A DNA stretch of 32,121 bases. Origin: Clostridiales bacterium. GTDB taxonomy: Bacteria; Bacillota; Clostridia; Christensenellales; JAISNN01. This document shows, piece after piece, positions 14,008 through 18,883 of this stretch. The first letter of the stretch is position 1, and the number at the start of each line of letters is the position of its first letter. The stretch lies in assembly GCA_031273825.1 (NCBI GenBank), contig JAISRB010000095.1, positions 1 through 32,121 on the forward strand, written 5' to 3'. A program made the translations under genes and the position numbers. Under the pieces are notes generated by a model that worked only from the letters and a program-made list of their open reading frames with translations, had not been told where the DNA came from and ran no database searches.

Positions 14008-14039
14008 GGGCAGCCAAAAACCGCGCTTTTTGGTTGCCC
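14008..14039. repeat. Palindromic repeat copy 1 (GGGCAGCCAAAAA-ccgcgc-TTTTTGGTTGCCC)
   Basis: 13-bp inverted repeat (one G-T position) just past the glgC stop; reverse complement matches 17418..17449 at 31 of 32 positions by eye. Confidence 0.85.
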
Positions 14040-14043
14040 GCCC

Positions 14044-15234
14044 CTATATCATTTTTCCTTTTAGTACGACTTCTCCCTCTTTTATAACCGTATCCGGCCC
14101 TATCAAGGCTATCTCCCATTCGCCGTTTTCTGCGGCGGCGGTGAGATTTTCGCCTATTTGCGCGCCCTTTTTGACGACCGCGCCCGGCCCTATTATGGCG
14201 TATCTGACGACGGCGTTTTCGTCTATGGCCGCGCCCGGCATGACTATCGAATTTTCGACGATTGCGCCCTTGCCGACGGTACAGCTGTGCGACAAAATAG
14301 AATTTCTAAGAGTTCCGTCGATTTCGCAGCCCTCGCTGACGAGGCTGTTTTCTATTTTTGCGTTTAGTCCGAGATAGTGCGGCGGCTCGGCTGAATTTCT
14401 CGCGTAGATTTTCCAACCCGTATCGTTGAGATTTATTCCCGAATTTTTATCGAGCAAATCCATATTGGCCTCCCAAAGGCTGGATATCGTTCCCACGTCC
14501 TTCCAATAGCCCTTAAAAGAGTACGCATAAAGCTTTTCGCCGTTTTTTAGCATATTGGTTATTATGTTCTTTCCGAAATCGTTTTGAGACGATTTATCGT
14601 CCTCGTCGGCTATGAGATACGCCTTTAGCTTTTCCCACGTAAATATATATATACCCATGGAGGCCTTTGTGCCCTTCGGCTTTTTCGGCTTTTCCTCAAA
14701 TTCCGTCACCCTGCCCTTTTCGTCCGCGCTCATAATTCCGAATCTCGACGCTTGCGACAGCGGCACGTCGATGACGGCTATCGTGCAATCAGCCTTGTTT
14801 TTTTTGTGGGAGTCGAGCATAAGCGAATAGTCCATTTTGTAGATATGGTCTCCCGACAGCACCAAAACGTATTCGGGGTTGTACCTGTCTATAAAGGCTA
14901 TGTTTTGATAGATAGCGTTAGCCGTGCCCTTATACCATTCGCCCGACTTTGCCCTCATAAACGGAGGAAGGACAAAAACGCCGCCGTTCAGTCTGTCCAA
15001 ATCCCACGGTTGACCGTTGCCGATATATGTATTCAGTTCAAAGGGCTGATATTGCGTCAATACCCCGATTGTGTCGATATGCGAATTGACGGTGTTAGAA
15101 AGCGTAAAATCTATGATTCGGTATTTTCCGCCGAACGGCACCGCCGGTTTTGCCACCTGACTCGTCAAAACGCCGAGTCTCGTTCCCTGTCCTCCCGCAA
15201 GAAGCATTGCGACGCATTCTTTTCTTTGTTTCAT
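14044..15234 (-). CDS. glgC: Glucose-1-phosphate adenylyltransferase
   Basis: 396 aa; [76 protein letters not shown], left-handed beta-helix C-terminus. Confidence 0.95.
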
Positions 15235-15271: not shown

Positions 15272-17179
15272 TTATTTTTTGTATCCGCTTAACGCTATAG
15301 GTCTGATAAACATGGCGGCGTTCGCGGGAATATTCAATCTCAAGATATACTCCTCGCCGTGCCGCGGCTGCGCCGATTTTCTCGCCTTTAGCGTCGAATT
15401 GCTCTTTACGCTTCCTCCGAAGGCCGCGCTTTCGCTGTTTAGTATTATCTTGTAGCTCCCGTCGGACGGCACGCCTATCTCATATTTTTGACGCGCCACT
15501 GGCGAAAAGTTTATCGCGGCGATGATATAGCCGCCGTCTAAGGCGCATCTCTTGAATACGGCTATATTTTGAATTTTGTCGTCTACGACAATCCACTTAA
15601 AGCCGTCAAAGCTGCAATCAAGCTCAAAAAACTCTTTGTTTGAGGCGTAAAGCTTGTTTAGCGTCTTGACGTAGGTCTGAAATTTTTTGTGCTTAGGATA
15701 GTCTAAAAGCTGCCAATCAAGCTGCTTTTTATAGTCCCATTCGATAAATTGCGCAAATTCGCCGCCCATAAACAACAGCTTTTTGCCCGGCTCGGCAAGC
15801 ATATAGGCAAAAAGAGCCTTGAGGGCGGAAAACTTTTCGTCGTAGCTTCCCGGCATTTTTTCTATGAGCGAACGCTTGCCGTGGACGACCTCGTCGTGAG
15901 ACAGCGGCAAAACGTAGTTTTCGGAATAGGCGTAGGTTATCGGAAAGGTCAGAAGCGCGTGGTTGTCCTTTCTAAAAAAAGGATTGAGCGAGGCGTATCT
16001 CAAAGTATCGTTCATCCACCCCATATTCCACTTGAAGTTAAAGCCCAAACCGCCGTCGTAGCTCGGTCTCGTTATCATCGGAAAGGCGGTAGACTCCTCG
16101 GCTATCATGAGAAAACCCTCGTTTCTCGACAAAACCGCCGTGTTTAGGTCGCGCAAAAACTCTATGGCCTCCAGATTATAATTGCCGCCGTCGATATTTT
16201 TTGCCGCGGCCTTGCCGCTCCTGCCGTAATCTAAATAGAGCATTGACGCGACCGCGTCGACTCTTATTCCGTCTATGTGATAAACCGAAGCGAAATATTC
16301 CGCGGAGGAAATGAGAAAGCTCCTTATTTCCGGTCTGCCGTAGTCAAATATGACGGTTCCCCAATCCTCGTGCTCGCGCTTTAGGGGGTCGGCGTATTCG
16401 TAGAGGCTTTTGCCGTTAAATTCAAAAAGCCCGTGCGCGTCCTTAGGAAAATGCGCCGCCACCCAATCGAGAATGACGCCTATGCCGGCGTTGTGCAGAC
16501 GGTCGACAAAGCGCATAAAGTCCTTTGGCGTTCCGAACCGCGAGGTCGGCGCGAACATGCCCGTAACCTGATAGCCCCAGCTGCCGTCAAAGGGAAATTC
16601 GGTGACGGGCAAAAGCTCTATATGCGTATAATTCATCGACTTGATATAGGGTATAAGCTCGTCGGCTATCATCGAATAGCTCATATAAGAGCCGTCGGCG
16701 TTTCTGCGCCACGAGCCTAAGTGCATCTCATATATGTTTATTGGCGACGAATAGGGATTATAACCGTTTCTTGCCGTCATCCATTTTTTGTCGCTCCAAC
16801 GGTAGCCGTCTAAGACATAGAGCTTAGACGCGTTAGCCGGCGGCGTTTCGCCGTGATAGGCGTAAGGATCCGACTTAAAAACGCAACTCCCGTCGTTTTG
16901 GATTATGCAATATTTATAATTGTCGTATTCTTTAAGCCCAAAAACGACTGTTTCGTATATCTCGTCCGAAATTCTGTCCATGGGATTTTTGTCCTTATCC
17001 CACCCGTTAAAATCTCCGACGACCGAAACGCCAAAAACCGACGGCGCCCATACGCGAAAAACCCAGCCGTCCTTGCCGCCGATTTTTATCGGACGCGGCG
17101 AAAACAGCTTGTGCGCTTCGTAGTTGACTCCCCTATGGAAAAGATATATGGGATCTCTCAGTTCTTTAGCAAGCGGCAT
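15272..17179 (-). CDS. glgB: 1,4-alpha-glucan branching enzyme (GH13)
   Basis: Likely start MPLAKELRDPIYLFHRG at 17179 (RBS GAGGTTAATT); the track start 17233 lies inside the promoter. Motifs NIYEMHLGSWRR, ELLPVTEFPFDGSWGYQVTGMFAPTSRFG, DGIRVDAVASMLYLDYGR, LSHDEVVHGKRSL. Confidence 0.95.
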   Translation of the reverse strand: MPLAKELRDPIYLFHRGVNYEAHKLFSPRPIKIGGKDGWVFRVWAPSVFGVSVVGDFNGWDKDKNPMDRISDEIYETVVFGLKEYDNYKYCIIQNDGSCVFKSDPYAYHGETPPANASKLYVLDGYRWSDKKWMTARNGYNPYSSPINIYEMHLGSWRRNADGSYMSYSMIADELIPYIKSMNYTHIELLPVTEFPFDGSWGYQVTGMFAPTSRFGTPKDFMRFVDRLHNAGIGVILDWVAAHFPKDAHGLFEFNGKSLYEYADPLKREHEDWGTVIFDYGRPEIRSFLISSAEYFASVYHIDGIRVDAVASMLYLDYGRSGKAAAKNIDGGNYNLEAIEFLRDLNTAVLSRNEGFLMIAEESTAFPMITRPSYDGGLGFNFKWNMGWMNDTLRYASLNPFFRKDNHALLTFPITYAYSENYVLPLSHDEVVHGKRSLIEKMPGSYDEKFSALKALFAYMLAEPGKKLLFMGGEFAQFIEWDYKKQLDWQLLDYPKHKKFQTYVKTLNKLYASNKEFFELDCSFDGFKWIVVDDKIQNIAVFKRCALDGGYIIAAINFSPVARQKYEIGVPSDGSYKIILNSESAAFGGSVKSNSTLKARKSAQPRHGEEYILRLNIPANAAMFIRPIALSGYKK

Positions 17180-17204
17180 AATACAATTAACCTCAATGCC
17201 TATC

Positions 17205-17233
17205 ATTATATCAAACTTTATGAAAATAGTCAA
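17205..17233 (-). promoter_or_regulatory. Putative sigma-A promoter for glgB-glgC
   Basis: Minus strand TTGACT-17 nt-TATAAT, predicted TSS about 20 nt upstream of the glgB ATG. Confidence 0.8.
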
Positions 17234-17280
17234 TATATCTCGTAAAATATTTTTTTATAGGGATTTATATGGCTTTTATT

Positions 17281-17341
17281 AGGGCTTGCGCATTTGCGCA
17301 AGCCCTGTGTAGGGGCAACGCGCTCGTTGCGCATGCGCTCC
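17281..17341. repeat. Intergenic repeat copy A: AGGGCTTGCGC-attt-GCGCAAGCCCT + GTGTAGGGGCAACGCGCTCGTTGCGC
   Basis: Near-identical to 17507..17567; contains a perfect 11-bp stem hairpin and a GCAACG-cgct-CGTTGC hairpin. Confidence 0.85.
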
Positions 17342-17360
17342 GCTCGCCGGGTTTCCCCTC

Positions 17361-17383
17361 TTGCGGCAACGAGATTGCCGCAA
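17361..17383. repeat. Perfect inverted repeat TTGCGGCAA-cgaga-TTGCCGCAA
   Basis: 9-bp perfect arms, read directly. Confidence 0.8.
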
Positions 17384-17417
17384 TTCACCCCTTTTCGCGG
17401 ACTTTGTCCGTTAATGG

Positions 17418-17449
17418 GGGCAACCAAAAAGCGCGGTTTTTGGTTGCCC
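17418..17449. repeat. Palindromic repeat copy 2 (GGGCAACCAAAAA-gcgcgg-TTTTTGGTTGCCC)
   Basis: Perfect 13-bp stem; inverted copy of 14008..14039. Confidence 0.88.
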
Positions 17450-17506
17450 TAAATAAAGTTGACGGCTTACTCATAGTCAAAGCGTGTCAAAAACGCAGTT
17501 TTTTTT

Positions 17507-17567
17507 AGGGCTTGCGCGGTCGCGCAAGCCCTGTGTAGGGGAAACGCGCTCGTTGCGCGTTCGCTCC
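17507..17567. repeat. Intergenic repeat copy B: AGGGCTTGCGC-ggtc-GCGCAAGCCCT + GTGTAGGGGAAACGCGCTCGTTGCGC
   Basis: Direct repeat of 17281..17341 with a changed loop and one internal C/A change before the tails diverge. Confidence 0.85.
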
Positions 17568-17568
17568 C

Positions 17569-17601
17569 AAAAAAACGCGGGGTCATATTTTCCCCCGCGT
17601 T
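17569..17601 (-). terminator. Putative Rho-independent terminator downstream of the yhcG-like gene
   Basis: Minus strand AACGCGGGG-gaaaatatga-CCCCGCGTTTTTTT: 9-bp GC-rich stem followed by a T run. Confidence 0.7.
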
Positions 17602-17643
17602 CCGGATTGTTTGTTTGCAATCATAAGCTTGCACAAAAATTAC

Positions 17644-17667
17644 TTGTAGGGGCGTCCGCCCCTACAA
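17644..17667. repeat. Perfect palindrome TTGTAGGGGC-gtcc-GCCCCTACAA
   Basis: 10-bp perfect arms; shares the GTAGGGG motif with copies A and B. Confidence 0.8.
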
Positions 17668-17703
17668 CGGCTATTGCGCCAAAAGCACACTGTCTACTAA
17701 ATA

Positions 17704-17745: not shown

Positions 17746-18792
17746 CTATTCGCCGGTTTCGAGGGCTTTTTTAAGTTCTTCTTTGCTCGGCAATACCGTC
17801 TGATATTTAGCCGCAAAAATCTGCTTGTTCTCTTCCGGTAACATCATTTCTACGAGAGCGTCCTTCTTGTCCTTGCACAACACTATTCCGATTGTTTTAT
17901 TCTCATCAGGCAACTTAACCATGCGGTCATAATAATTTACATAAGTTTGCATTTGACCGATATCTTGGTGTTTAATCTTTCCGATTTTAAGGTCTATAAG
18001 CACAAAGCAACGCAAAATCCGATTGTAAAACACGAGGTCGACATAAAACGATTCTTCATCGAATGTAAACCGCGCCTGCCGCTTGACAAATGTAAACCCT
18101 TTTCCGAGTTCAAGTAAAAACTCTTGAATATGGTCAATCAACCTTTTTTCGAGTTTTTGCTCGGTGTAGTCTGTCTTTTCCGGCAATCCCGTAAATTCAA
18201 GCACATACGGGTCTTTGAAAATGTCGGCCGGAGTTTGAACTATCTGCCCATGCGCCGCCAACTCCATTACCCTATTTTTATCCATTGAGAGCGCAATTCT
18301 CTCATACAACGAAGTGTCAAACTGCCGCGAAAATTCTCGAAAGCTCCAACCGTTCGCCGCAATTTCATGCTCGTAAAACTTGCGTTCGTCGGGATTAGAA
18401 ATACGCATAAGCTGAATATAATGCGACCAACTTATGGCGGGATTGAATTGGCTAAACACTGTTTCGCCAATTTGATTTCCGGAATACACCAAATAAAATT
18501 GACGAATCAGCTTGAGGTTTGCAATAGAAAAGCCTTTGCCAAACCCGGCGGTTAAATACTCGGAAAGCCTTTTTATAACTTGCTCTCCATATTCGGCGCG
18601 CGTTGCCCCCTTCTGCTCATTTTCAATAATCCGCCGCCCGATTTCATAATAAGTGACAACCATTGTCGTATTTACGGCTTGCGTTAAGCCGACGCGCGCT
18701 TTGTTTATCAGCTCAAATATATCACGAAAAAACGGCGTTTCCGACGGAAACGCGCCGCTATCAGACGATAAAGCGATTTTCTTTTTTGACAC
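17746..18792 (-). CDS. YhcG/DUF1016 family PDDEXK nuclease domain-containing protein
   Basis: Probable GTG start at 18792 (VSKKKIAL) with GGAGGATATA just upstream; the track start is 18858. Motifs ARVGLTQAVNTTMVVTYYEIGRRI, SWSHYIQLMRISNPDERKFYEHEIAANGWSFREFSRQFDTSLYERIAL, FYVDLVFYNRILRCFVLIDLKIGKIKHQDIGQMQTYVNYYD. Confidence 0.92.
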   Translation of the reverse strand: MSKKKIALSSDSGAFPSETPFFRDIFELINKARVGLTQAVNTTMVVTYYEIGRRIIENEQKGATRAEYGEQVIKRLSEYLTAGFGKGFSIANLKLIRQFYLVYSGNQIGETVFSQFNPAISWSHYIQLMRISNPDERKFYEHEIAANGWSFREFSRQFDTSLYERIALSMDKNRVMELAAHGQIVQTPADIFKDPYVLEFTGLPEKTDYTEQKLEKRLIDHIQEFLLELGKGFTFVKRQARFTFDEESFYVDLVFYNRILRCFVLIDLKIGKIKHQDIGQMQTYVNYYDRMVKLPDENKTIGIVLCKDKKDALVEMMLPEENKQIFAAKYQTVLPSKEELKKALETGE

Positions 18793-18883
18793 TATATCCT
18801 CCGGCAGTTTATAAGCTCTAATGTAATCAACAGCATTGAAAATAGCTATTGACGGCAAGCTTTAGTGGCGACGCTTTTAACCG

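Follow-up and report, generated by a model that had tools for sequence, protein, structure and literature searches.

Between a glgB-like gene (assigned by Pfam) and a YhcG gene, the DNA analysed here, a stretch of 32,121 nucleotides from a Clostridiales bacterium (hereafter the window), carries a dense cluster of palindromes. Is this cluster peculiar to the locus, or does it belong to a repeat, and if so, of what kind? The initial annotation had suggested a REP/MITE-like family under structural constraint. In outline this reading stood: composite palindromes are dispersed through the genome, and their stems are kept while the sequence is altered. An association with a RAYT/Y1 transposase gene, which had been named for checking, was not supported. 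Four properties go beyond that annotation: the repeat is mobile, it prefers stop codons, it is truncated by modules, and its architecture is order-wide.

Modular structure of the repeat

The palindromes quoted in the initial annotation were all found in place, as were the two composite copies (17274-17341 and 17500-17567), which are 90% identical over 68 nt. The repeat in the window extends from 17281 to about 17567, with the module order H1-H2-H3-linker TTCACCCC-H4-H5-M3-H6 (Table 1). It is a unit of about 180-290 bp, made of ordered, differing palindromes which form five or six hairpins and have no coding capacity. When 17281-17570 was folded as single-stranded DNA, the z value was -8.4, and none of 200 shuffled sequences folded as well.

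Table 1. Positions of the repeat modules and of neighbouring features in the window
Feature	Position	Strand	Remark
Isolated H5 module	14008..14042	-	directly 3' of the glgC-like gene's stop codon
glgC-like gene	14044-15234	-	
glgB-like gene	15272-17233	-	
Strong promoter-like site	17233-17205		adjoins the H1 end of the window copy
H1, terminal stem-loop AGGGCTTGCGC-ATTT-GCGCAAGCCCT	17281..17306	+	end that overlies the neighbouring gene's stop codon in many other copies
H2, long hairpin AGGGGCAAC ... GTTTCCCCT	17311..17359	+	17311-17332, on its left, forms the motif counted 75 times
H3, palindrome TTGCGGCAA/TTGCCGCAA	17361..17383	+	covariation within this genome and between families
Linker TTCACCCC	17384..17391	+	short motif, found again in other families
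H4, stem CCCC..CGGACTTTGTCCG..GGGG	17388..17419	+	inner pairs covary
H5, GGGCAACCAAAAAGCGCGGTTTTTGGTTGCCC	17418..17449	+	AAAAGCGYGGTTTT apex found again in other families
M3, joining segment TAAATAAAG..CATAGTCAAAGCG..AAACGCAGTTTTTT	17450..17506	+	
H6 and truncated H2-left	17507..17567	+	direct repeat of H1-H2L; GTGT spacer as in H1 of the window copy
Hairpin	17569-17601		outside the repeat; minus strand (17601-17569) reads as stem, then T-run
Palindrome TTGTAGGGGCGTCCGCCCCTACAA	17644-17667		outside the repeat; 17667-17644 terminator-like on the minus strand (terminator scan)
YhcG gene	17746-18858	-	

In this genome (G000), the consensus of H1 is AGGGCTTRCGC-N4-GCGYAAGCCCT with variants, followed by a variable four-base spacer; that of H2 is AGGGGAAAC..GTTTCCCCT. 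The outer modules H1 and H6 are direct repeats, each of them self-palindromic. Their spacers are identical within the copy in 9 of 16 cases (mean of shuffled pairs, 1.7), and in some copies (L003, L009) bases outside H1 also agree with the second H1. Because of these agreements, the second H1 probably originated as a copy of the first, made at the same place.

The pair TTGTAGGGGC..GCCCCTACAA, which had been counted with the family, lies outside the element. That only the hairpin at 17569..17601 resembles a terminator was not exact either, as Table 1 shows for the minus strand. Motifs related to the separate palindrome at 17644-17667 (GTAGGGGCGGACGACCCGGCCGCCCG) occur as short direct repeats in locus L021, and GTAGGGGC recurs in L005 at regular spacing.

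In the window, H1 is not at a stop codon but about 46 nt from the start of the glgB-like gene, which it faces. The isolated H5 module at the end of the glgC-like gene is a second piece of the palindromic repeat within one glycogen cluster.

Copy number and partial forms

The G000 assembly is a 1.74 Mb draft in 132 contigs with 89% completeness. The initial annotation would have been refuted by motifs unique to the locus or as frequent as in shuffled sequence, and the count that it named was carried out: the H2-left motif AGGGGMAACRYRCTCGTTDCGC, with up to two mismatches, has 75 genomic sites, compared with none for the reversed control pattern. By BLAST, about ten other places match 17281-17565 at 83-90% over most of its length. 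These results rule out a unique or chance feature. Covariance model R1 has 69 matches in G000, partial ones included. Altogether the genome contains about 70 dispersed copies and pieces, a number which is a lower bound, and the arrays are perhaps incomplete, since the assembly is a draft and several contig ends lie inside repeats.

Partial copies exist in several forms (H1-H2L only, to H3, H5 only). Among 74 H2-left units, 37 comprise H1-H2L only, five reach H3, two reach H4 and 30 reach H5; many of the 37 represent either the final H6 in a long copy or a member of an array. One copy on contig C98 lacks H1 and consists of H4-H5 only, again just after a stop codon. The GTAGGGG core that had been thought to be shared is not constant, as the H2 stem begins with TTAG in 31 of the 74 units, with GTAG in 17 and with ATAG in eight.

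Units of about 40 bp are arrayed in tandem, head-to-tail and in the same orientation, on contigs C34 and C116. In these arrays (L030, C34:90-345; L002, C116:45430-45585) the unit corresponds to the right arm of H1 plus H2-left, and the four-base spacers are array-specific (e.g. CATT).

Those genes between close pairs of copies that were checked are housekeeping genes or have no assignment, and include those for a DUF819 protein, an NFACT protein, thymidylate kinase and YqfD; the candidate of an autonomous copy was rejected on these grounds.

Position at stop codons and empty sites

As a rule, a copy begins at the stop codon of the gene that precedes it. For 17 of the 23 copies with a co-directional upstream gene, H1 begins within -20 to +7 nt of its stop codon, and the TAG of TAGGGC is often this stop. 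Several other families show a sense ORF ending about 45-51 nt before H2, which is the length of H1. Some copies, including that in the window, abut no stop codon.

The element can supply the stop codon or the last residues of the protein. A gene at locus L107 of G010, a genome assigned to another family within the order, terminates at 1521, inside H1, with MGGKLRLSAE* compared with MGGKDKLTAK*; from its C-terminus we take it to be seryl-tRNA synthetase-like. Similarly, H1 provides the last residues of a glmU-like gene of G000 (KKYRGIHS* compared with KYKK* or KYGKKK*).

The flanks of G010 copies were searched in the congeners G129, G179 and G264. At five sites (L107, L102, L119, L099, L103) there is no element in the congeners whose gene end was found and read, and by eye several of these empty sites have an unchanged right-hand neighbour. 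Three species have a copy at the site of a phoU-like gene (L095), which is empty in G264. In G000, eight genes abutting a copy, among them a ychF-like and the glmU-like gene (names given from sequence), have orthologues in the congeners G001-G005, with the element absent after every one whose 3' end was read; L194, L196 and L204, where the reads stopped short of the gene end, were left out of the count. The repeat moves, its sites being occupied in one genome and empty in congeners. Since the gene ends are not alike and the copies are missing from five congeners, insertion is likelier than loss overall, although single sites may have arisen by loss. The congeners are too diverged for target-site duplications to be defined.

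Covariation of the stems

We gathered 35 cores from G000, of which 27 near-full-length ones were aligned (A1). Both sides have changed in 15 of the 51 predicted pairs, in line with the conserved stems that the initial annotation had noted. In the cross-family alignment, 92% of the cells pair and 125 are double-changed (shuffled alignments, 33.5 +/- 4.5; 0/500). As MAFFT misaligned H3-H5 across families (A2), model-fitted alignments were used instead; these lean towards their own structure, against which a control was run by sliding the partners by 1-3 columns, and the score fell from 0.36 to at most 0.09. Alignment A8 includes two reverse-strand rows of L243.

In H3, the cross-family pairs from 125/187 to 134/178 contain 62 double-changed cells, with none changed on one side only (G-U). 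Because these double changes occurred without G-U intermediates, a palindrome at the DNA level is favoured over selection on RNA. The arms thus appear to be kept complementary in the DNA, by palindrome recognition and/or hairpin-templated correction.

Folding is strong on both strands. Of 27 copies, 25 fold better on the minus strand, and host controls lean the same way, not significantly. All eight unique transition-type mismatches in G000 are A.C on the strand read from H1, i.e. G.U on the opposite strand (8:0, significant). The other families have A.C and G.T in balance (11:10), mismatches of further kinds are the most frequent, and host control stems behave alike. A minus-strand RNA deduced from this asymmetry was not retained as a candidate, the bias being significant in G000 only.

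Relatives across the order

Out of 396 genomes sampled across the order, 19, belonging to six families, show the same module order in divergent sequence with covariance model R3. R3, which was built across families, matches six genomes that had contributed no sequence to it (G255, G276, G277, G676, G694, G747). R1 matches G010 at an E-value of about 1e-6 and, reciprocally, model R2, built on G010, matches G000 at E = 1e-10; R2 also matches genomes of families f6, f14, f24 and f29. G010 has its own repeat family (about 80 BLAST pieces), which follows the plan in different letters: H1 after a stop codon, AAGGGGAAACC..GGTTTCCCCTT, TTTTCGCGC..GCGCGAAAA, TTCA(A/C)CCC, CCGCCCTTACGGG and AAAAGCGCGGTTTT. 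Within the genus of G000, only G001 keeps copies, few and degenerate.

With R3, no match was found outside the order in a class-wide sample of 391 genomes; the viral contigs searched had none either. The core 20-mer had a single exact match, in a gammaproteobacterium, in a collection of 84,980 species (one genome per species); it was taken as chance and spread beyond the order was rejected.

Some loci deserve separate mention. In G179 (L143, contig C4) a copy lies at the end of an rRNA operon, after the 5S rRNA gene (5S 359-475, match 674-879), and is preceded by a terminator-like H1. Tandem copies in family f14 (L251, G245:C17) have the next H1 directly after H5 and a short A/T-rich joint. 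In several G010 loci (among L093-L122), GGTGGAGCGCCACGCGCTCC-type palindromes adjoin modules of the element and appear to form another mosaic repeat family. G004, a congener in which the element is absent, carries a degenerate tandem repeat of the GTTGAAAGTTGCGGATTAAA type directly after a gene end (L215, contig C143).

Discussion

The repeat is probably a non-autonomous mobile element, a fixed series of palindromes without coding capacity of its own whose copies are moved in trans, and it is best read as a new, order-wide kind of mosaic palindromic element. An enzyme that recognizes hairpins, probably in single-stranded DNA, would move the copies. Insertion at a stop codon may be tolerated because the protein is left almost intact and a hairpin-rich 3' end is added. 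Tandem copies of H1 would arise at the site, by template switching or by tandem duplication.

Position right after stop codons, strong folding of both strands and the fact that in G000 all eight unique transition-type mismatches read as G.U on the strand opposite to the neighbouring gene would also fit a structured RNA, acting in cis (as a terminator or stability element of the 3'-UTR) or in trans, which had spread through its usefulness at gene ends under selection of the RNA fold. We consider this unlikely: the mismatch bias is not found in other families, H3 pairs changed without G-U intermediates, and the empty sites in congeners imply that the element is not needed there. Nor was there any covariance-model match to a known structured RNA in Rfam 15, including a permissive search of 16 loci. 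The same lack of an Rfam match, together with a reading of the sequence, is what bears on a group II intron (intron domain V) or an integron attC site (R/L boxes with an integron integrase). The G.U bias could also point to SINE-like retro-insertion, in which reverse transcription at a nick copies an RNA whose strand is opposite to that of the abutting gene. With H1 as the 3' end of the RNA, this end would be precise and the far end ragged, and template jumps would give tandem copies, consistent with the precise H1 end at stop codons, the variable far end and the head-to-tail arrays. Such a route seems very improbable, as many of the apparently short units are terminal H6 modules or array members, some copies (that on C98) have no H1, and the bias is again limited to G000.

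A REP or BIME mobilized by a RAYT/IS200 transposase, as in Proteobacteria, can hardly be credited. The repeat is palindromic, extragenic and mosaic, and it gives TAG stops to ORFs like the GTAG REPs (PMC3733652); Y1 transposases are present in seven of 17 tested members of the order at the Pfam cut-off. No Y1 transposase was found, however, in G000 or in the repeat carriers G179, G264, G018, G169 and G192, and across the 17 genomes its presence does not track the repeat. Moreover, only 17 of 74 units have the GTAG tag, and units of about 180-290 bp consist of different palindromes in order, not of one palindrome in alternating copies.

Among known repeats of Firmicutes, pneumococcal BOX and the bcr1-type of B. 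cereus are modular or structured intergenic sequences with conserved secondary structure, like the repeat described here; compared by description only, BOX has fewer modules. To our knowledge, neither is described as abutting stop codons. No description of a comparable multi-palindrome element was found in the literature searched, in which subscription journals are thinly covered. With the REP/BIME sequences of Proteobacteria the repeat shares mosaics of extragenic palindromes at high copy number, complementary stem changes (PMC2817692) and TAG stops for flanking ORFs, which GTAG REPs provide in Proteobacteria, Cyanobacteria, Chloroflexi and the PVC group (PMC3733652). In GTAG-tagged REPs, however, this tetranucleotide ends a palindrome of 20-40 bp and a RAYT (Y1) transposase is encoded in the genome with the repeats on its flanks, and in BIMEs one palindromic unit alternates in orientation. 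The repeat has no conserved GTAG tag (TTAG being more frequent) and no linked Y1 transposase; its five or six palindromes differ from each other, their order is fixed, tandem copies have the same orientation, and six families within a single order share the plan, most of its letters having changed. MITE-like small mobile sequences (Correia, RUP, ERIC, RU-1/2) are non-autonomous, form hairpins, are 100-300 bp long and have expanded in particular lineages (PMC2229807). The repeat resembles them in these respects, and like a MITE it is non-coding and dispersed, with empty sites as the sign of insertion. It seems to differ at its ends, where a palindrome is repeated directly in place of a single pair of terminal inverted repeats, and no cognate transposase was found.

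Somewhat doubtfully, we also entertain the wider reading that the repeat may represent an undescribed class of mobile nucleic acid which targets gene ends within one order. Its identity would lie in the order of hairpins rather than in the letters, and it would be spread by an enzyme not yet tied to any bacterial repeat, possibly through an RNA intermediate as in SINEs. The repeat is conserved as an architecture across bacterial families while its sequence has been rewritten, and by landing on stop codons it alters, within one species, the C-termini of proteins and the 3' ends of numerous genes. Covariance model R3 can be used to find further copies, and the repeat offers a testable way into a mobilization system of a little-studied bacterial group.
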